A stretch of DNA of 20,233 nucleotides from a virus. Positions 3,334 to 20,233 of the stretch are shown here, piece by piece. The DNA is taken from positions 1-20,233 of IMG/VR virus record IMGVR_UViG_3300031963_001158; one strand, given 5' to 3'. Below the pieces are notes generated by a model. That model ran no database searches. It had not been told where the DNA came from and saw only the letters and a list, made by a program, of their open reading frames with translations. Within the stretch, counting starts at the first letter, position 1; the number at the start of each line of letters is the position of its first letter. The translations under genes were made by a program, and so were the position numbers.

Positions 3334-3891
3334 ATGGAAACAAGGTATTTTAATATAGAATTTGCTGCCGTAGAAGAAAGAAAAATAGAAGGCACTGCGT
3401 CATCAATGGATAGCCCTTATGATATGGGTAATTTTGACGAAGAAATTGATATGGATGCTTTTAATGATGCTGATTTTAGTGAGGCAGCTGCTTTATTTAA
3501 TCATGACCAGAATATTGTTCTTGGAAGGGTTAGAAATAATACTTTGCAGATAAAAAGAGAAGGCAATAAATTAAAATATACTATTGACCCACCAGAAACT
3601 AATGCTGCAAATGACGTTATGACATTAATTAGGAGAGGTGATGTTTATCAATCATCTTTTGCATTTTCATTAAAAGAAAATGGTGATTCTTGGGAAATGA
3701 GGGATGGTAGATGGAAAAGAACTATTAAAAAAATTGACAAAGTATATGATGTTTCACCGGTAACATATCCTGCTAACCCAAATACAATGGTTGCCGCAAG
3801 AAATATGGAAAGACATATTCAGCAAAATGAAAAAGCGGAATGCAATTTCAATGAGTTTGTTGAATTTTTAAACAATTTAAAAAAATATTAG
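3334..3891 (+). CDS. Prohead (capsid maturation) protease, HK97 family S78
   Basis: This serine protease acts inside the prohead to cleave the delta domain from the major capsid protein. At 185 residues it has the usual length. H57 in L-F-N-H-D and S107/S108 in Y-Q-S-S-F-A-F match the conserved catalytic His and Ser positions of the S78 herpes/HK97 assemblin-like fold. The motif V-S-P-V-T-Y-P-A-N-P at about 140-149 is the typical C-terminal signature. The gene lies 3 nt after the portal stop and just before the capsid gene, the canonical placement. Its start is preceded by an A/T-rich sequence without a Shine-Dalgarno, as is usual in Bacteroidota. Confidence 0.93.
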   Translation: METRYFNIEFAAVEERKIEGTASSMDSPYDMGNFDEEIDMDAFNDADFSEAAALFNHDQNIVLGRVRNNTLQIKREGNKLKYTIDPPETNAANDVMTLIRRGDVYQSSFAFSLKENGDSWEMRDGRWKRTIKKIDKVYDVSPVTYPANPNTMVAARNMERHIQQNEKAECNFNEFVEFLNNLKKY

Positions 3892-5683: not shown

Positions 5684-5896
5684 ATGAGAGTGCGGTTTAT
5701 TAAATCGCCATCTGGTTCACCACATTCCCTTGGATATTTTCAGGGGGATGTGGCTGAATTAAATGACGTTACGGCAAATGAATTAATAAAAGCAGGTATA
5801 GCAGAATCTTTTGAAAGTAAAGTTACTGTAGAAGAAAATGCAGTTTTAATTGAAACCAAAATTAATTCTAAACCCAAAAAGGCAATTAAAAGATGA
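5684..5896 (+). CDS. Small unknown protein, paralogue of the gene at 9767
   Basis: This 70-residue protein begins M-R-V-R-F-I-K-S and has a G-D-V-A-E-L, then A-N-E-L-I-K-A-G-I-A-E core, followed by a Lys-rich tail (K-P-K-K-A-I-K-R). The same scaffold occurs in the 93-residue protein at 9767-10048 (M-R-I-I-F-I-K-S, G-N-V-C-D-V, A-N-Q-L-I-N-L-G-I-A-E). Small proteins of this pattern (a beta-hairpin with 'G-D-V-x-E-L', then a helix ending in 'G-x-A-E') are common next to capsid and connector genes in siphophages, with no settled function known to me. It starts 1 nt after the preceding stop and overlaps the connector start by 4 nt (ATGA). Confidence 0.8.
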   Translation: MRVRFIKSPSGSPHSLGYFQGDVAELNDVTANELIKAGIAESFESKVTVEENAVLIETKINSKPKKAIKR

Positions 5897-6477
5897 AACC
5901 CTGGAGAGTAACAGTTGATCAAACAAATGAATTATGGACTTCTGCGGAAGTTAAAAATTATTTGAAAGTTGATGATTCAACTGATGATGCTCTTATTGCC
6001 ACAATGCTAAAAGCTGCCAGACAAGCGGTAGAATCTAGGCAAAATATATCTACGCTTACCAAAACTATTGTACAAAGATTAGAGCGTTTTCCTTCAAGTT
6101 ACAAAGTAGCTACTGATTATGAAAACGTAATTAAATTGTTAGTTTACCCTTGTGTTGGCGTTACGTCAATTACTTATTTAGATGAAAATGGTATATTGCA
6201 AACATTGTCACCTAGTTTATACGAAGTAGATACCTATAAAGGTATTATCGGAGAAGCGGTAGATCAGGATTTTCCAGACACTTATTTATCATTAAATGAT
6301 GTGACGATTACATATACTGCTGGTTACGGAATAAACGCTACAGATTGTCCATCAGACATTAGAATTGCAATTTTAAAATTAGTTGCATCTATGTATGATA
6401 ATAGAGGTGATGCAGTACATAAAATGCCAACAGCTACTGACATAATGCTAAATAGGTATAAATATGATTGGGTATAA
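5893..6477 (+). CDS. Head-tail connector (gp6-like adaptor)
   Basis: This protein forms the ring beneath the portal that adapts the head for tail attachment. It has 194 residues. The N-terminal helical part (T-S-A-E-V-K-N-Y-L-K-V-D, then D-D-A-L-I-A-T-M-L-K-A-A-R-Q-A-V-E) is the classic signature of the HK97 gp6/SPP1 gp15-type connector. The central beta-rich insertion is typical: V-Y-P-C-V-G-V-T-S-I-T-Y-L-D, then V-T-I-T-Y-T-A-G-Y-G. The protein closes with a helix (D-I-R-I-A-I-L-K-L-V-A-S-M-Y-D-N-R-G-D) and a short tail. The gene overlaps its neighbours by 4 nt upstream and 14 nt downstream, and its position between capsid and head closure agrees with the role. Confidence 0.9.
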   Translation: MKPWRVTVDQTNELWTSAEVKNYLKVDDSTDDALIATMLKAARQAVESRQNISTLTKTIVQRLERFPSSYKVATDYENVIKLLVYPCVGVTSITYLDENGILQTLSPSLYEVDTYKGIIGEAVDQDFPDTYLSLNDVTITYTAGYGINATDCPSDIRIAILKLVASMYDNRGDAVHKMPTATDIMLNRYKYDWV

Positions 6478-8008
6478 TAAAAGTGAGATTGTTGGCAAAA
6501 TGAGGGAAAGAGTAATTCTGCAAAATAGAATTATAACTCAATCAGATAGTGGATTTCAAAGTGAAATTTATAGTGATATAGGTATTTATTGGTCAAAAAT
6601 AGAATATAAAACAGGTTTTGAGGAAGAAGATGCAGACAAATTGTCAAATCAACAAAAAATAAATATAACTTTAAGATACAATATACTTGTAAATGTTAAT
6701 TCAAGATTTGTTTATAGAAACGAATTATATCAGGTAGAAAAAGTTGAGTATAGTGACGATAGACGATTTATGATTTGTGTCTGTGTTTGGCGTTCATCCT
6801 ATACGTCTATATATGCAGGGTCTATTTTCTGCTCCGCTTCTCTATTGGCACAAAGTAGCCTATCGGCTGCCTTGATGCGTGTTATTAAATATCAAGCATC
6901 GTTAAACGCATTTGGCTCTGTTTCCGCTGACATTAACTTTGTTCAAAAGGTTGCATCAAGTTTAAACGCCAATGGTTTATTAAGCGGTGATATTTCCTTT
7001 GTTCAAAAGGCGCAAGCCTCCTTGTTAACGTCGGCAAATGTAAACGCATCGGCATTGATTAGCAAGTTGCCGCAAGCCTCCTTGTTAGCCACAGGGACAA
7101 CAACGGCAGATTTGACGGTGCAGGCGGCGGCTTCCTTGTTACTTGATTTATATCCAAATGCGGCAGCGGCTTATTCTTTGCGCAAGTTAAGAACGGCATA
7201 CACAGGGAGTGCAGTAAGGGTGAGGGCAAGTATAAGCGGTGCAGAAGGTGATGTTTCTTTTGATGTAAATAGTACGATAAGCGCAAGTAGCACGGTTACA
7301 GTTACTGCCGTTGGAACAAGTGGGCTTAGTATTGGACAGCAAGTTACATTTAGTACTTTTTGGAATGCAGGTGGAAGTAATCAAAATGTATTTGTAACCA
7401 CGTGGTATGACCAAAGTGGGAGTGCAAGGAACGCAACACAAACAACGCAAGCAAGTCAGCCAAGTATAGTAAATTCGGGGTTTATAAATTTTATTAATTT
7501 AAAACCTGGAATTAATTTTGTTGGTGGCAGTACGGTGTTAATGAATTTTAACCAAATAACTTTAAGTAATTTTACGATTTTGTGGGTTAGTAGAAAAACT
7601 CCCTTAAATCAAACGGCTATTATTTTATCAGGTGGATTAGGATCCCCAAGCTATGCAGGTGATGATGTAGATAATGCAGGTTGTCCTAATTTATACGCAG
7701 GCGCTCAATCTGTAATAGTTAAAAGTTTAAATAACACGACATCAGAATTAACAGGTAGATTATCGCAACATTTATGTTATTTAAATCGTAGAAATACAAA
7801 TCAAGCTGTTGGTCAGTTTAATAACTCAAATAATTCATATAATAATGTAGTGTCAGCTAACAATTTTGTTGCTGCTGGTATTGCAAACTACGGTAGTAAT
7901 TATAATTATGCTGGAGATTTGCAAGAAATAATAATTTACAGTTCTGATAAATCAGATGAAAGGACTAATATTTCAAATAACATAAACATACATTATGGCA
8001 TCTATTAA
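6464..8008 (+). CDS. Head-closure protein fused to repeats and a concanavalin/LamG-like module
   Basis: This 514-residue protein has three parts. Residues 1 to about 110 look like a head-tail joining/head-closure protein (SPP1 gp16-like): M-R-E-R-V-I-L-Q-N-R near the start, then S-D-S-G-F-Q-S and Y-W-S-K-I-E-Y, ending near W109. Such proteins normally stop here. Residues about 140-222 are low-complexity repeats of about 20 residues (A-S-L-x-A-x-G), coded by a 60-bp DNA repeat. Residues 228-514 look like the concanavalin A-like/arabinofuranosidase-type module of phage and secreted Bacteroidota proteins: A-Y-S-L-R-K-L-R-T-A-Y-T-G, then W-Y-D-Q-S-G from W314, then L-Q-E-I-I-I-Y and a C-terminal I-N-I-H-Y-G-I-Y. 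Base use becomes richer in GC around 6800, at the domain join. I infer a carbohydrate-binding decoration on the head-tail joint; an internal start giving a separate protein is possible (M at about residue 137). Confidence 0.82.
   Translation: MIGYNKSEIVGKMRERVILQNRIITQSDSGFQSEIYSDIGIYWSKIEYKTGFEEEDADKLSNQQKINITLRYNILVNVNSRFVYRNELYQVEKVEYSDDRRFMICVCVWRSSYTSIYAGSIFCSASLLAQSSLSAALMRVIKYQASLNAFGSVSADINFVQKVASSLNANGLLSGDISFVQKAQASLLTSANVNASALISKLPQASLLATGTTTADLTVQAAASLLLDLYPNAAAAYSLRKLRTAYTGSAVRVRASISGAEGDVSFDVNSTISASSTVTVTAVGTSGLSIGQQVTFSTFWNAGGSNQNVFVTTWYDQSGSARNATQTTQASQPSIVNSGFINFINLKPGINFVGGSTVLMNFNQITLSNFTILWVSRKTPLNQTAIILSGGLGSPSYAGDDVDNAGCPNLYAGAQSVIVKSLNNTTSELTGRLSQHLCYLNRRNTNQAVGQFNNSNNSYNNVVSANNFVAAGIANYGSNYNYAGDLQEIIIYSSDKSDERTNISNNINIHYGIY
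6891..7130 (+). repeat. 60-bp tandem repeat, about four units, inside the fusion gene
   Basis: Four diverged units of 60 bp (20 codons) start near 6891, 6951, 7011 and 7071. CTTTGTTCAAAAGG is identical at 6937-6950 and 6997-7010, and CGCAAGCCTCCTTGTTA is identical at 7011-7027 and 7071-7087, each pair exactly 60 bp apart. They code for repeated A-S-L-x-A-x-G-x-x-S-A-D-I-x-F-V-Q-K units. The last unit runs a few codons short before the lectin-like module starts. Confidence 0.85.
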
Positions 8009-8228
8009 CGGCTACAAATACACCAATGAGGCTGATGCCTTGCACGCGCAGGACATTTGTCGAATCAATGAAGACTTACCAAAGCCAGGTGGAACAACCT
8101 TGCAAGCAGTTGACGTTCAGCACGCTGCCTTGAATGTGCCTCCATTTTGGTATATTACATTTTGCGACGAAAGTCAAATTCTCGGCATTCCTGAGACATT
8201 TGACGTTATTCAACCAGAATTAAATTAA
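7995..8228 (+). CDS. Small hypothetical protein, accessory to the lectin-like module
   Basis: This 77-residue protein begins M-A-S-I-N-G-Y-K-Y-T-N-E-A-D-A-L and contains L-P-K-P-G-G-T-T, then F-W-Y-I-T-F-C-D-E-S and I-P-E-T-F-D-V. The ATG at 7995 overlaps the end of the fusion gene by 14 nt, so the two are likely co-translated. I recognise the general pattern ('I-N-G-Y-x-Y', 'L-P-K-x-G-G', a Y-I/D-E-S strand, 'P-E-T-F') from short uncharacterised proteins next to phage tail adhesins, but cannot assign a function. Base composition matches the preceding lectin-like region rather than the AT-rich core genes. Confidence 0.75.
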   Translation: MASINGYKYTNEADALHAQDICRINEDLPKPGGTTLQAVDVQHAALNVPPFWYITFCDESQILGIPETFDVIQPELN

Positions 8229-8247
8229 ACAACAAAAAAAAAATATC

Positions 8248-8637
8248 ATGGCATTTTCAAATTATTTAGAAGACCAAATCACAGGGTGGATAAACGGCTC
8301 TGCCTTCGCCTCCGCTCCCACTTCTACCTTTGTCCAATTATATTCACAAGACCCAACTGACGCAGGCTCTGCCACAGGTGCATTGTACACACGCGTTGCC
8401 GTGGCAGCAGGTGGATGGACACGGGGAACAGGTGGCGCAGGGACATTGACAAACACGGCAGCGATTACCATTACATCAAGTGCAGCATCGGGCGCAACGG
8501 CTACACACGTGGCAGTGTTTGATACAATCACAGGTGGAAATATGTTATTTGCAGGTTTATTGGCTGCACCTAAAACCATTGCAACGGGAGATGAAGTTAA
8601 GTTTAACGCTACTGCATTGACTTTAACAGTAGCTTAA
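8248..8637 (+). CDS. Tail-fibre-like small beta protein
   Basis: This 129-residue protein opens with M-A-F-S-N-Y-L-E-D-Q-I-T-G-W and runs through F-V-Q-L-Y-S-Q-D-P-T-D-A-G-S, Y-T-R-V-A-V and V-A-V-F-D-T-I-T-G-G-N-M-L-F-A-G, closing with P-K-T-I-A-T-G-D-E-V-K-F. This pattern ('F-S-N-Y-L-E', 'L-Y/F-x-x-D-P-T-D-A-G', 'x-x-x-F-D-A-x-x-G-G-N-L-L-F', 'K-x-I-x-x-G-D') is shared by short phage proteins commonly labelled tail fibre or minor tail proteins; their biochemical role is not firmly known. It is richer in GC than the core genes, and a run of about ten A residues precedes its start. It is the last gene before the hairpin at 8638-8671 and probably belongs to the same accessory cassette as the two genes upstream. 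Confidence 0.8.
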   Translation: MAFSNYLEDQITGWINGSAFASAPTSTFVQLYSQDPTDAGSATGALYTRVAVAAGGWTRGTGGAGTLTNTAAITITSSAASGATATHVAVFDTITGGNMLFAGLLAAPKTIATGDEVKFNATALTLTVA

Positions 8638-8671
8638 AAACATTTGTGCCCTGAAATATGGGCGCACGTTT
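8638..8671 (+). terminator. Hairpin after the accessory cassette, candidate terminator
   Basis: TGTGCCC (8645-8651) pairs with GGGCGCA (8660-8666) as a 7-bp stem with one G-T wobble and an 8-nt loop. It is extended by AAAC (8638-8641) with GTTT (8668-8671) across a small internal loop. The first base of the extension follows directly on the stop codon of the 129-residue gene. The downstream T-run is short (TTT then A), so strength is uncertain. A promoter-like -7 box follows 28 bp later, which fits a transcription unit boundary. Confidence 0.55.
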
Positions 8672-8698
8672 AAAACTGCAATTAAGTTATTTATAGCT

Positions 8699-8706
8699 TA
8701 TATTTG
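8699..8706 (+). promoter_or_regulatory. Bacteroidota -7 promoter box upstream of the tail completion gene
   Basis: TATATTTG at 8699-8706 is a perfect match to TAnnTTTG and is followed by C, as in strong Bacteroidota promoters. No clean TTTG is present 19-21 bp upstream; the nearest trace is ACTG around 8675-8678. The predicted start is near 8712, giving a leader of about 10 nt before the ATG at 8722. This would give the tail genes fresh transcription after the hairpin at 8638-8671. Confidence 0.5.
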
Positions 8707-8721
8707 CATAAAATAATTTAA

Positions 8722-9375
8722 ATGCCAAGAAGACCTGCATCATTTGTACATACGGAAAGAGGAGTTGCTTATGCAAGAGCAAGAAACGAACAAAGATTAG
8801 CTGAACAAGGTGGTAAATTTGTTAGTAGAGAATATGCAATGAATTTGCAGATTTATGACAAAGATGTAATGAAAGCATTAGAACATTTAAGAACTAATGC
8901 AATGAGAGATTGGGAACAAAATAAGGTTAGTATTATTACTAACGCTTCTAAACCAATGGTTGATGCTATTAAGCCACAAATACCAATTTATAGGTTTCCA
9001 GAACACTACAGATATATTCAAAGTAAAAAATCTAGTAGAAGGATTAAAGTTACCTACAAGGCGGGTCATTTACGAAATAGTGTAAAAGTATTAAATCCTT
9101 TTAAACCCAGATTAAGAAGGCAGGACACTATTGTAATTGGCCCATTAAAACAGTATCCAACTAAAATGGACAAAGGCCCATTTGACGGCATAAATAAATC
9201 AGATGCTTATTACGCAAATTTTGTATTTGGTGGTGCAAATGAATTTAGAAACAAAGCTTTATTGCAAGGCTTTATTAAAGCGGAAAAAAGAACAGGAGAT
9301 ATTATAATCAATGGTGCAGAAAAAATCATTGAAAGAGAAACAAGAAATGCTGGATTAACTTATACTAGAACGTAA
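8722..9375 (+). CDS. HK97 gp10-like tail completion / head-tail joining protein
   Basis: This protein has 217 residues. The central part shows the family pattern: a helix ending V-M-K-A-L-E-H-L-R-T-N-A-M-R, basic K-K-S-S-R-R-I-K-V-T-Y, then A-G-H-L-R-N-S-V-K-V (the conserved 'T/A-G-x-L-R-x-S-I' segment of gp10-like proteins). After that come I-V-I-G-P and Y-Y-A-N-F-V-F-G-G, matching the usual 'Y-A-x-x-x-E-x-G' near the end. The N-terminal 45 residues (P-R-R-P-A-S-F, E-R-G-V-A-Y-A-R-A-R-N) are basic and look like an extension. The role is completing the tail and joining it to the head. The stop overlaps the next gene in a TAATG, and the promoter box at 8699 and the 84-bp gap put it at the head of a transcription unit. 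Confidence 0.82.
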   Translation: MPRRPASFVHTERGVAYARARNEQRLAEQGGKFVSREYAMNLQIYDKDVMKALEHLRTNAMRDWEQNKVSIITNASKPMVDAIKPQIPIYRFPEHYRYIQSKKSSRRIKVTYKAGHLRNSVKVLNPFKPRLRRQDTIVIGPLKQYPTKMDKGPFDGINKSDAYYANFVFGGANEFRNKALLQGFIKAEKRTGDIIINGAEKIIERETRNAGLTYTRT

Positions 9376-9770
9376 TGAATATTGGTAAAGTTATTTTTGC
9401 GATGGTTGCTGCTAATGGTAATTTAGTAAATTTAGTAGGAACAAAAATATATCCGGAAGAAGCACCAAGTAATGTGTCTTATCCTTATATAACTTATGTA
9501 AAAGTAAATACTAATCCAACTAGAGTTAAAAATTTAGTTAGCCCCAAAGACGAGTTTAAAGTTAATTTTTTTATTTATTCAGATAATTACGATACTACTC
9601 AAAATATTGGTGATGCATTGAGAATTGCACTTGATAATAAAAGAGGGACTTATGCTAATTTTAAAGTTGATTGGGTATTATTTGAGGACGAGGCTACTGG
9701 AGATCCTATTATGGAGGATAAAATATATTGGATGGTACAAGATTATATGTTTAAAATCAATAATGTATGA
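9375..9770 (+). CDS. Tail terminator / tail completion protein (DUF3168-like)
   Basis: This 131-residue protein shows a helix, then L-V-G-T-K-I-Y-P-E-E-A-P-S and V-S-Y-P-Y-I-T-Y-V-K-V. This 'I-Y-P-x-x-A-P-x-x-x-x-x-P-Y-I-T-Y' pattern is characteristic of the gp17-type tail completion/tail terminator family. It is followed by F-K-V-N-F-F-I-Y-S-D and a helix D-A-L-R-I-A-L-D, the usual alpha/beta layout. Tail terminators cap the polymerised tail tube at the head-proximal end. It is coupled at both ends, TAATG at 9373-9377 and ATGA at 9767-9770, and lies directly before the second small paralogue and the major tail protein, as expected. Confidence 0.85.
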   Translation: MNIGKVIFAMVAANGNLVNLVGTKIYPEEAPSNVSYPYITYVKVNTNPTRVKNLVSPKDEFKVNFFIYSDNYDTTQNIGDALRIALDNKRGTYANFKVDWVLFEDEATGDPIMEDKIYWMVQDYMFKINNV

Positions 9771-16358: not shown

Positions 16359-16722
16359 TTATACTGAAAGAACTGTATTATCTAAACCACGAGATTACAA
16401 TGAAGTAGCTAATAATGCTGGAAGTGGTGGAGTGGTAAATAATAATGTCACAGAGACAATAAACAATGTGACGGTAAATGGTTCTGTCGTTTCTATTTTC
16501 AATCAAGAATTTGTAAATGTTTATTCTAACGTATTAACATGGACACAAAATAACGGTAATTTACCCTTAACAAATGTAAATGCTTCTATTCATGTATATC
16601 AAAATGGACAAAAATTAATAGAAAGTCAGTTTACTATAACGCAACCCAATACAATTACTATTGATAGTGCAACACATTACGATGGAAGTAATTATATTAT
16701 ATTTGCATTAAACATAGCCTAA
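16351..16722 (+). CDS. Small tail-tip/adhesin-associated protein
   Basis: This is a 123-residue protein. ATG at 16351 is preferred over a TTG one codon upstream, and it overlaps the previous gene by 8 nt. The N-terminal part is basic and polar (Y-T-E-R-T-V-L-S-K-P-R-D-Y), followed by an Asn/Val-rich segment (N-N-N-V-T-E-T-I-N-N-V-T-V-N-G). The C-terminal half alternates hydrophobic strands with H-V-Y-Q-N-G-Q-K-L-I and ends in Y-I-I-F-A-L-N-I. The 'V-x-x-N-G-Q-x-L' strand pattern is common in small beta domains of phage baseplates and fibres. It shares its stop with the start of the long fibre gene (TAATG), so the two products are probably made and assembled together. Exact function unknown. 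Confidence 0.75.
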   Translation: MPNYTERTVLSKPRDYNEVANNAGSGGVVNNNVTETINNVTVNGSVVSIFNQEFVNVYSNVLTWTQNNGNLPLTNVNASIHVYQNGQKLIESQFTITQPNTITIDSATHYDGSNYIIFALNIA

Positions 16723-19700
16723 TGGAAGAAATAAAAACACCAAAGAAAGAACGTAAGTTTTTAAAAGCCGTTGGAAATATTGCCAAAGTTTTAGCGAATG
16801 AATTAGTCATGGGAATAGCCAGGAAGTTTATTGGTAAAGCTATTGACAAAGTAGGCAATAAACGGCAAGGTCTATCAATGGCTTTAATTATTATTGCCTC
16901 TACTTCTGCTTTTGCCCAATACCCAACAACCTCAAACAAACAAAGATTAGGTTTTCAAACCACGGGCGACGGGCTTGTTTGGCGAGGGTCATTATCCGAC
17001 ACAGCAACCATACAACCAATAAACAACCAAAACGCATGGGTTATTCTTGATACAATCAACCTTAAATTTTATACGTTTGATTTTACTTCCAACGTTTGGA
17101 ATTTAGTTGGCGGTGGCGGTGCGGCTTTTACGCAGCCCGTGGATTCCTTGTTTTTCAATGTCAATGTTCCGACAAATAATGTAGATACGGCAAAGATGCG
17201 TTGGGATTCCGATTTGGCAACCGTGGTACTTGGATTAAATGACAATGTACCTAATGAACTTGGATTCAAAAACTTTTGGCTTGTTAAGAATCAAACAGGA
17301 ACAACCATTACCAAAGGTAGCCTTGTTTACGCCAATGGCACGGTTGGTTCAAGTGGCAGAATAACGGTTGCGAAATTCATTGCCAACGGCTCAATAGATG
17401 CAAAGTATTTACTTGGAATAACGGCACATGATTTAACCGATGGTGAAGATGGGTATGTTATTTCATTTGGCAAAATAAGGCAAGTTAATACTGATACCTT
17501 TGCGGCTGGCGCAATTCTTTACCCATCGCCAACTGTGGCAGGTGTTTGGACAGATATAGAGCCTGTTGCACCTAATCTTGATATGCCTATTGGCTTTTGT
17601 ATCAATTCAGCAATAAACACAGGTACAATAGCCATACGCGTAGCATCGGGATATAAATTATCAGAGCTTCACGACGTTTCAATAACGTCTCCTGTTGAAA
17701 ATTCATCTTTGTATTATAAAGGTGGATTATGGAGAGACACAACGGCGGCGTTATTAACAAGTGACACGGCTTCAATGCTATTGCCTTACCTTCGCGATGC
17801 CGACACAGTATCTTTGTCAAATAGGATTAATCTTAAATTAAATATTGCTGACACATCAGCCTTCGCACGGGACAATCAAATCAGCGGAACAAGTGGGCAG
17901 GTGGCGTATTTTAATTCAAGTAGCAGCGTTGTTTCCGACACTGCTTTGCGTTGGAGCGCAGCCAACAAGTCACTTGGTATCAATATGAAAACCGTACCAT
18001 CGGGCGCAAACTTGATTCTTAAAAACAGTCAAGAGCCTGTTAGAAGTACGGTTGTGGCAACGCAAACATTTGGCGCAGATACAACGAATTGGACACGCGG
18101 TGCAGGTTGGACATTTAACGGAACACAGGCGGTGGCAACAGCAGCGACGGGTAATTTGACTTACACGCCTTCTTTGACTATTACGGCTGGAAATGCGTAT
18201 GAAGTTACATATACTTTAAGCGGTTATTCAGCTGGAACATTGACGGCGGCGGTTGGAAATGTTACTTATAATCTTCCGTCATATAATATAACGAATGTGG
18301 TAGTTTTATTACCAACAAACGCAACAGGCGGTTTTAGGTTTACTACATCTACATTTACTGGTAACTTGGATAATATTAGTATAGTGCAAATTTCAAATCC
18401 AGCACCTATTTTATTTGCTGGTCAAGATGATGATAATAATACTTTATACAATTCCATAGTAATGCCAAATTTAACATCATTAAGTTTTGGAGGAGGTGCA
18501 AGATATACAACTGGAACTAGTAATTTTTCACATGGATCTGGTTTAGAAAAAAATACAACTGGAAATAATAATATTTTTATTGGCATTAATAATGGTTTAA
18601 ACAATACAACTGGTTCAAATAATGTATTTTTTGGTCAAATATCTGGTCAAAATAATACAATTGGTAACAATAACTATTTTTTTGGTGAAAGAGCTGGACA
18701 GTTTAATACATCTGGTTCGCGTAATTATTTTTTTGGAACTACAACTGGTCAAAATAATACAGTTGGCAATGATAATGTATTCTTTGGAACAGCAGCTGGA
18801 TTTTCTAATTTATCTGGAAGTAATAATTTTTTCTTTGGTGTAAATGCAGGTAATAAAAATACTACTGGAGCTTCAAATAATTTTATTGGCTTTAGTGCAG
18901 GATTTAGCATGATAAATGGTAGTAGTAATAATTTCATAGGCGTTGACGTTGGTAGAAATGCAACAACTGGAAATAATAATAATTTTATTGGTGCAGATGC
19001 AGGAAATATAAATACTGGAAGTACAAATAATTTTATTGGTTTTCGCGCTGGATATTTTAATACATCTGGTGGAAATAATAATTTTATAGGTTCAAACGCT
19101 GGATATTTAAATAGAATAGGTAGTTTTAATTCTTTTTTTGGCGGAGATGCTGGTTATGTAAATAAAAGTGGTTCAAATAACGTATCTATTGGCTATCGTT
19201 CAATGTATAATACTGTTACTGCTGATTCGCTTTCAGGCTCAAACAACATTGCACTTGGCACAAACGCTGCCGATAACATTGCAGGCGCAGCCGCTGGCAA
19301 CGTTGCCATTGGCAATGCCGTTGACCTTCCCACCAACAACGGCTCAAATCAAGGCGTTTACCAAAACGTTTTATTTTTCACGGGCGCAAGTGGCACAGGA
19401 ACAACGATTGCAGCAGCCTCAAAAGCAGGAATAAAAACGAATGCTCCAAACCGTGACCTTGAAGTAGCTGGCGAAGTGCGAATAACGGATTTAACAACCG
19501 ACGCACCAACGCGCCTTGTTGGTGCAGATGCAGAAGGTGACTTGGGACAGGTGACGTTAGGCGCAGGGTTAAGCCTTGCATCTTCAAGTTTACTTGCTGA
19601 TACCAGTTTCCTTGTTACAAGGTTTGACACGGCTTCCATGCTTACGCCGTATTTCAGGGATGCAGATACAACTTCTTTAAACCTTACTTCAAGATTTGCA

Positions 19701-20233
19701 GCTAAATTAAATATATCTGACACGGCTTCGATGCTGACAAATTACTTGCGCACGGGCACGGCGGCTTCGACTTATTTACCTTTGACGGGTGGGACTTTGA
19801 CAGGTGACTTAGGTATTTCTAAAAGTAGTAATTCAATTTTAAGATTATCTTCAGCAGACGTTGGAAGTTATGGAAAGTTAATATTTTCATCAAATAATGG
19901 TGGTTATTTAAATTACGGTGCATCGATAGAATCTTCTGGCGATGGTGTTGGAATAGACGTTGGCAGCCTAAATTTTCTTACAGGATTTGGAACGGTAAGA
20001 ACAAATCGAATGACTATAACACCAACAGGTAATTTAACTATTGTAAATAGTGCTACAATCGGTGGCACGCTCGGCGTCACAGGCGCAACGACATTGACAG
20101 GTGGTATAAAAATTATTGGAACAACTGATATTTTTAACGGGCAACCTTTTTCAACGTTACAATTAATACCCGCACCAACCATTGGTTCAACAGATAATAC
20201 TATCCAAACAATAAATACAACAGGGCTATCATT
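16722..20233 (+). CDS. Long tail fibre / adhesin, 3' truncated by the window edge
   Basis: The frame from ATG at 16722 (coupled by TAATG) stays open to the end, giving at least 1170 codons. Residues 1-52 are basic and amphipathic, then M53-A65 form a signal-peptide-like stretch ending A-F-A before Q66. Residues about 184-307 resemble a fibre shaft domain (F-W-L-V-K-N-Q-T-G-T-T-I-T-K-G-S-L-V-Y). D-T-A-S-M-L modules occur at residues 348, 969 and 1000. Residues about 442-556 look like a beta-sandwich sugar-binding-type module. Residues about 611-830 hold thirteen 17-residue repeats (N-T-x-G-x-N-N-x-F-x-G-x-x-A-G). L-T-G-G-T-L-T-G-D-L at 1021-1030 is a classic fibre motif often found upstream of an S74 autocatalytic chaperone domain, which would lie outside the window. 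Probable host-receptor-binding fibre, trimeric by inference. Confidence 0.9.
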   Translation, partial: MEEIKTPKKERKFLKAVGNIAKVLANELVMGIARKFIGKAIDKVGNKRQGLSMALIIIASTSAFAQYPTTSNKQRLGFQTTGDGLVWRGSLSDTATIQPINNQNAWVILDTINLKFYTFDFTSNVWNLVGGGGAAFTQPVDSLFFNVNVPTNNVDTAKMRWDSDLATVVLGLNDNVPNELGFKNFWLVKNQTGTTITKGSLVYANGTVGSSGRITVAKFIANGSIDAKYLLGITAHDLTDGEDGYVISFGKIRQVNTDTFAAGAILYPSPTVAGVWTDIEPVAPNLDMPIGFCINSAINTGTIAIRVASGYKLSELHDVSITSPVENSSLYYKGGLWRDTTAALLTSDTASMLLPYLRDADTVSLSNRINLKLNIADTSAFARDNQISGTSGQVAYFNSSSSVVSDTALRWSAANKSLGINMKTVPSGANLILKNSQEPVRSTVVATQTFGADTTNWTRGAGWTFNGTQAVATAATGNLTYTPSLTITAGNAYEVTYTLSGYSAGTLTAAVGNVTYNLPSYNITNVVVLLPTNATGGFRFTTSTFTGNLDNISIVQISNPAPILFAGQDDDNNTLYNSIVMPNLTSLSFGGGARYTTGTSNFSHGSGLEKNTTGNNNIFIGINNGLNNTTGSNNVFFGQISGQNNTIGNNNYFFGERAGQFNTSGSRNYFFGTTTGQNNTVGNDNVFFGTAAGFSNLSGSNNFFFGVNAGNKNTTGASNNFIGFSAGFSMINGSSNNFIGVDVGRNATTGNNNNFIGADAGNINTGSTNNFIGFRAGYFNTSGGNNNFIGSNAGYLNRIGSFNSFFGGDAGYVNKSGSNNVSIGYRSMYNTVTADSLSGSNNIALGTNAADNIAGAAAGNVAIGNAVDLPTNNGSNQGVYQNVLFFTGASGTGTTIAAASKAGIKTNAPNRDLEVAGEVRITDLTTDAPTRLVGADAEGDLGQVTLGAGLSLASSSLLADTSFLVTRFDTASMLTPYFRDADTTSLNLTSRFAAKLNISDTASMLTNYLRTGTAASTYLPLTGGTLTGDLGISKSSNSILRLSSADVGSYGKLIFSSNNGGYLNYGASIESSGDGVGIDVGSLNFLTGFGTVRTNRMTITPTGNLTIVNSATIGGTLGVTGATTLTGGIKIIGTTDIFNGQPFSTLQLIPAPTIGSTDNTIQTINTTGLS
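18552..19211 (+). repeat. Thirteen in-frame 51-bp repeats in the fibre gene
   Basis: Units of 51 bp (17 codons) start at 18552, 18603, 18654, 18705, 18756, 18807, 18858, 18909, 18960, 19011, 19059, 19110 and 19161; the tenth is 48 bp. Each codes for a variant of N-T-T-G-x-N-N-x-F-F/I-G-x-x-A-G-x-x. A partial unit precedes them at about 18513. The repeats are AT-rich (AAT codons), unlike the flanking parts of the gene. The pattern suggests a trimeric beta-roll or beta-helix like the head repeats of YadA-type adhesins (inference). Confidence 0.88.

Follow-up and report, generated by a model that had tools for sequence, protein, structure and literature searches.

A phage head-closure protein with a repeat stalk and an exchangeable tip: a probable anchor of neck fibres

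Head-closure proteins are small and are commonly regarded as pure plugs. The locus described here raises the question of what else such a protein might do. The known stoppers of the SPP1 gp16, HK97-type and RcGTA g7 kind end after the head-closure domain, whereas the ORF at 6464-8008 (plus strand) of the window (the whole 20,233-nucleotide stretch of viral DNA that was analysed) runs for 400 more residues, through a stalk into a tip. It encodes an uninterrupted chain of 514 amino acids, composed of a head-closure domain, a repeat stalk and the tip, and was delimited from the ORF list together with PHROG and Pfam matches.

The setting of the gene is that of a siphophage-type structural operon, with every gene on the plus strand, in the order terminase, portal, protease, capsid, head-tail adaptor Ad1, the fused gene, a 77-aa gene, a gp80-like gene, neck1 and terminator, followed by the major tail protein, the tape measure and tail proteins; part of these gene names were assigned from position alone. 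The phages of this type probably infect Bacteroidota. The upstream neighbor, Ad1 (5893-6477, plus strand; phrog_442, 3.7e-24; phrog_40 Ad1, 5.6e-18; Pfam Phage_connect_1, 6.7e-9), marks the canonical neck position. Downstream, the 77-aa and gp80-like genes intervene before neck1, a tail completion gene (8722-9375, plus strand) identified by a weak phrog_5 match (0.025) and by its position in relatives, and the tail terminator (9375-9770, plus strand; phrog_347, 4.6e-11). The fused gene thus lies where a head-closure protein (Hc1) is expected, between the adaptor and the neck1-terminator pair, and no second Hc1 match occurs in the window.

The first-pass annotation had taken the N-terminus for a complete head-closure protein, and this assignment is borne out by several lines of evidence. 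Residues 1-113 (6464-6802, plus strand) comprise a match to Pfam Phage_HCP (PF05521; residues 11-107, model positions 4-103 of 106, E 8e-12, above the curated cut-off) and one to phrog_25 'head closure Hc1' (region of residues 11-108, 2.7e-9), a profile search with the domain matches 2KZ4 (7.5e-8), and stand-alone relatives of 113 aa exist. In an AlphaFold model of the full-length chain, the N-terminal domain is well predicted, confidence is low for the stalk, and the C-terminal part is rich in beta structure. The N-terminal domain has the stopper fold according to Foldseek, with SPP1 gp16 (7z4w) as the best match (TM 0.70 by target) and with other neck proteins and the RcGTA stopper (0.67) as the next phage matches; 2KZ4 also scores 0.67. 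In domain, fold and gene position, it is therefore the same as SPP1 gp16, HK97-type Hc1 and RcGTA g7, and the length of 113 aa is close to the 112 aa of RcGTA g7.

The stalk (residues ~114-219; 6803-7120, plus strand) is also real: the 20-residue repeats that had been noted after the head-closure domain emerge as a peak of self-match at lag 20 (1.07, against a 99% level of 0.44 in shuffled sequence), the repeats are exactly 20 residues long, and a period of 20 is present in four other stalks. Differences between stalk sequences fall at codon positions 1, 2 and 3 in the numbers 196, 161 and 377, the pattern of translated sequence. A frameshift or assembly error at the junction, which the first-pass annotation had named as a possible source of the fusion, could be suspected from the shift in G+C content near this point (from about 0.28 to 0.40-0.50), but an identical fusion is present in a second contig (99.4-99.7% identical) and an in-frame fusion in more than 40 divergent contigs, the operon is intact on both sides, and the substitutions are of the coding type. 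The independent contigs refute an assembly artefact, and the probability of a chimera or frameshift is negligible.

A subtler alternative is that two proteins are made from one ORF, with internal initiation or proteolysis freeing a stalk-tip product that would join a fibre elsewhere on the virion. There is a methionine at residue 138, a capsid-type protease gene is encoded in the same operon (3334-3891), and stand-alone GH54-like tip proteins exist elsewhere. However, Met138 is not common to the other stalk types, the bases before it are G+C-rich, in contrast to the A/T-rich sequence that precedes the neighboring genes, the repeats begin upstream of it, and the in-frame junction has been kept in 42 Hc1 fusions as well as in other carriers. 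An internal start near residue 137, raised previously, is accordingly unlikely, and a two-protein product in general appears rather improbable.

That a single chain carries both parts is further illuminated by relatives that lack the extension. There are 18 distinct relatives with a bare head-closure protein, which is 113 aa long where complete and ends where the extension in the window begins; in these loci, neck1 starts at the Hc1 stop codon or a few bases from it. A comparison with one such bare locus (L089) shows collinear sequence of ~90% DNA identity as far as 6778, and collinearity returns at 8722; the ~1.9 kb between these points (6779-8721, plus strand) is extra in the window and holds the stalk, the tip, the gene of the 77-aa partner and the gp80-like gene, which is homologous to the GP4 fiber I protein. 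Identity to L089 is 69% in the Hc1 domain, compared with 95% in Ad1 and 94% in neck1, which suggests that the Hc1 allele and its fibre were exchanged together. Among the neck genes, the terminator is the other one to have diverged from L089 along with Hc1: its identity dips to 73-78%, compared with 88-100% over the remaining neck region. This one comparison suggests the possibility that Hc1 and the terminator, the ring proteins that contact each other, were exchanged as a matched pair.

The fusion is widespread among uncultivated relatives. When a fused relative (L022) was used as the query of a scan, ~40 further contigs were found in which Hc1 continues into a repeat stalk, with Hc1 domains ~38-40% identical to that of the window where compared. 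Altogether, the distinct Hc1 ORFs with a fusion number at least 42, of which 31 are complete and 11 are cut by contig ends, against the 18 bare ones; the fusion was not found among the named phages in the collection or in the genome contigs searched. The stalks lead into four unrelated classes of tips, namely, GH54-like, glycine-rich (Pfam Gly_rich_2), Laminin_G_3 and phrog_17104-like. In a tree of Hc1 DNA, there is one change between the fused and the bare state, against a minimum of 13 switches of tip class within the fused members. In L083 and L084, Hc1 and most of the stalk are mostly 90-100% identical and the tips are unrelated, and stalk DNA is in parts 86-100% identical to that of phages with other tips or other carrier proteins. 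In the window itself, positions 481-960 of the gene are 88-100% identical to L007, in which the carrier is a different protein of 171 aa, over flanks at a background of ~52-76%, which points to recent exchange. A separate case of recombination is found in L294 (4288-5387), which combines two Hc1 clades, the capsid and adaptor genes being of the window type and Hc1 of the other clade; its Hc1 of 159 aa is an exception, with a short stalk, a gp80-like gene and no recognised tip.

The tip of the window protein (residues 220-514; 7121-8005, plus strand) is of an adhesive type, a putative GH54-like and concanavalin-like jelly roll as judged from PHROG, profile and structure matches. Over residues 222-513 there is a match to phrog_10356 'virion structural protein' (1.3e-16; 1.2e-16 in a further search), the motif W-Y-D-Q-S-G is at residues 314-319 (bases 7403-7420), and a profile of 59 tips matches the GH54 arabinofuranosidase AbfB (1WD3, 4.4e-8). 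The GH54 match spans only the first ~80 residues of the tip and residues 16-87 of the enzyme, so that the whole catalytic domain is not covered. Pfam ArabFuran-catal (PF09206) is matched by 52 of the 59 members of the family, the tip of the window not being among them. Foldseek returned 65 PDB matches at E <= 0.001 for the tip, with TM by query only ~0.3-0.4 and a model pLDDT of 68.7; the top neighbors are agrin LG, pentraxins, CBM40 and other concanavalin-like domains. Matches to the binding domains of clostridial neurotoxins reflect the common jelly-roll fold only and are uninformative with respect to function. The concanavalin/LamG-like module proposed earlier is probably right as regards the jelly roll, and is refined to a relative of the N-terminal part of GH54 that represents one of four tips. 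The tip alone occurs in genomes of Bacteroidota and others.

The matches of the family to AbfB and ArabFuran-catal leave room for the tip being an enzyme, a GH54-like arabinofuranosidase or another depolymerase that would clear capsule or exopolysaccharide near the neck. This is a quite unlikely function, given that the similarity is limited to the beginning of the tip and that glycine-rich and LamG domains, which are non-enzymes, replace it at the same site. Furthermore, the second half is variable, with the commonest residue at a mean frequency of 0.27-0.34 in the middle of the tip compared with ~0.8 in the first part; invariant acids are found only at tip positions 97 and 269, and no alignment to the GH54 catalytic residues was obtained. 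It is most economical to regard the tip as a putative binding module whose base is conserved and whose face varies, and which probably binds a glycan of the host surface.

The tips do not travel alone. The 77-aa partner gene (7995-8228, plus strand), which overlaps the fused gene by 14 bases, is specific to the GH54-like tip: genes of this type follow it in 6 of the 6 complete Hc1 fusions with such a tip, and no other tip class, and the pairing of the GH54-like module with this gene downstream is nearly constant across ~75 loci. The phrog_17104-like tips are followed by another partner (3/3) and the glycine-rich tips by a third type (16 of 19, the other three being without a recognised partner); no partner of their own was recognised for LamG tips in the fused loci, and there were no crossed combinations of tip and partner among the complete fused Hc1 loci compared. 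The partner genes gave no PHROG or Pfam match where searched. The next gene (8248-8637, plus strand) is a homologue of the fiber I protein gp80 of the podophage GP4, with a match to Pfam PF23140 over the full length (6e-28, model 1-128 of 128) and a profile match to 8JOU_a (3.5e-14). Such a gene is present in 29 of the 29 complete fused loci with enough downstream sequence and in none of the 18 bare loci. In these long-tailed phages, a family known from a podophage accompanies stalks that are anchored on a stopper or terminator. The arrangement of an interchangeable tip followed by a gene for its partner is reminiscent of T4-type gp37/gp38 and lambda Stf/Tfa, modular adhesins of tail fibres that likewise have a dedicated gene downstream; those adhesins, however, are on tail fibres or the baseplate, whereas the cassette described here is on proteins of the head-tail joint.

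An additional gene of 323-324 aa (MKLGIFTNIEAP...), a candidate glycosyltransferase from the look of its sequence, is found between the tip and the gp80-like gene in L127, L141, L143, L147, L148, L153 and L157, and upstream of gp80 in further contigs; the tips at its loci differ. As a 323-aa gene (pLam), it was considered as the partner of the LamG tip and rejected, being an optional extra gene that also occurs beside glycine-rich and phrog_17104-like tips.

The head-closure protein is not the only carrier. In unrelated phages, the cassette of stalk, tip, partner and gp80-like gene is fused to a different protein, of 171 aa, represented by 15 distinct sequences, all of them fused, with three recognised tip classes and the same partners; profile and family searches with this carrier gave no identity. 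A third carrier is a 256-aa myophage protein that, by profile, is a tail terminator/sheath stabiliser of the T4 gp15 type (5.6e-5 to 4HUH), with 7 of 12 members of its family matching phrog_227 and the gene preceding that of the tail sheath. In 26 relatives, this protein has no extension and no gp80 gene beside it, and at the fused locus a segment of ~1.9 kb takes the place of a few bases at the stop codon. These comparisons show that stalk, tip, partner and gp80 behave as a mobile cassette that has moved between phages and onto different joint proteins. On balance, we favor the broader notion that siphophage and myophage lineages share a neck-fibre cassette grafted on the C-termini of ring proteins, with the joint as a general landing pad and the stalk repeats and the conserved start of the tip providing homology for recombination. 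A further carrier type is found at L337:3538-5827, with a short stalk and a GH54-like tip followed by two tandem gp80-like genes.

What, then, would the extension do? We consider it probable that the head-closure protein doubles as the anchor of a neck fibre with an exchangeable adhesive tip for accessory adsorption. The evidence is good for anchoring at the neck and for fusion having occurred repeatedly, whereas binding of glycans, the number of copies and the role in adsorption are inferences. Arms displayed at the neck, as originally suggested, are the best explanation of the single ORF, the stopper domain, the gene order and the added cassette, and the proposal is now extended to four interchangeable tips and to a stalk-tip-partner-gp80 cassette that is also found on other joint proteins; the suggested attachment to mucus has been dropped, no pointer to it having been found. 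Residues 1-113 would assemble into the stopper ring of the head-tail joint, as suggested by domain homology, fold and gene position, and the 20-residue repeats would form an outward stalk of variable length. Published stopper rings, in RcGTA, lambda and R4C, are hexamers (PMC7296036, PMC10721106, PMC10276861), and each virion would accordingly be expected to carry up to six of the chains, perhaps as six single arms or two trimers. The stalks may leave the ring near the interface with the terminator; in RcGTA, the C-terminus of the stopper touches the terminator (PMC7296036). The putative jelly-roll tip at the end of the stalk would contact glycans of the host surface. Strict co-occurrence with the fibre suggests a probable task for each of the two accompanying genes: the partner would help or cap the tip to which it belongs, and gp80, as a fibre component, would take part in fibre assembly or anchoring. 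The likely role is a first, reversible contact with the cell besides that of the tail tip. The window also encodes, at 16722-20231, a long open-ended protein with many repeats of the G-x-N-N-x-F-x-G type, probably the tail fibre, in which a match to the GH54-like tip was sought and not found; the neck extension would therefore be an additional adhesin.

Adhesion to the host by the tip of a neck fibre is nevertheless not assured, given that the carbohydrate module with which the neck fibre of phage A-1(L) ends failed to bind its host (PMC10966104). This observation, along with the action of T4 whiskers on tail fibres (PMC10966104), is compatible with a mainly structural extension whose function, like that of T4 whiskers, would be to stabilise the neck or the folded fibres of the tail, with tips that stay off the host. 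Such a function is unlikely: the frequent replacement of the tip and its variable second half look like selection for changing targets, and the existence of bare relatives with necks otherwise 92-98% identical implies that the extension is dispensable for assembly.

The proposed anchor with its adhesive tip resembles the neck fibres of T4 (Wac/fibritin), Anabaena phage A-1(L) (gp80-82) and XM1 (gp40) in location and in the combination of stalk and tip, and that of A-1(L) also in ending with a carbohydrate-binding module. Those fibres, however, are separate proteins docked to the neck (A-1(L), PMC10966104; XM1 as described in PMC10491603), whereas the fibre encoded in the window is covalently part of the stopper. 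Modular swapping of the C-terminal domain of fibritin has been described as ancient and ceased (PMC3797505), in contrast to the recent exchange observed here, with up to 100% DNA identity between unrelated phages. The head fibres of RcGTA, which are flexible and bind the host capsule polysaccharide away from the tail tip (PMC7296036), offer a further comparison, but are fixed to the capsid vertices via a base protein, not to the stopper. Neck fibres and modular adhesins are thus already known, and it is the covalent anchor on a stopper or terminator that is unexpected; no description of a fibre-bearing stopper or terminator was found in a literature search whose coverage mostly excluded subscription journals. 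If correct, the proposal implies a second receptor-binding site, at the neck, in a phage clade with tip exchange, and offers a genetic handle on the role of neck appendages, a question that goes back to the T4 whiskers. It also provides a sequence signature for metagenomes: a Phage_HCP or terminator domain, then 20-residue repeats, and a gp80-like gene.

Beyond the joint proteins, tandem paralogous GH54-like tip proteins, each with its own short leader, are encoded in L050, L064 and L071.
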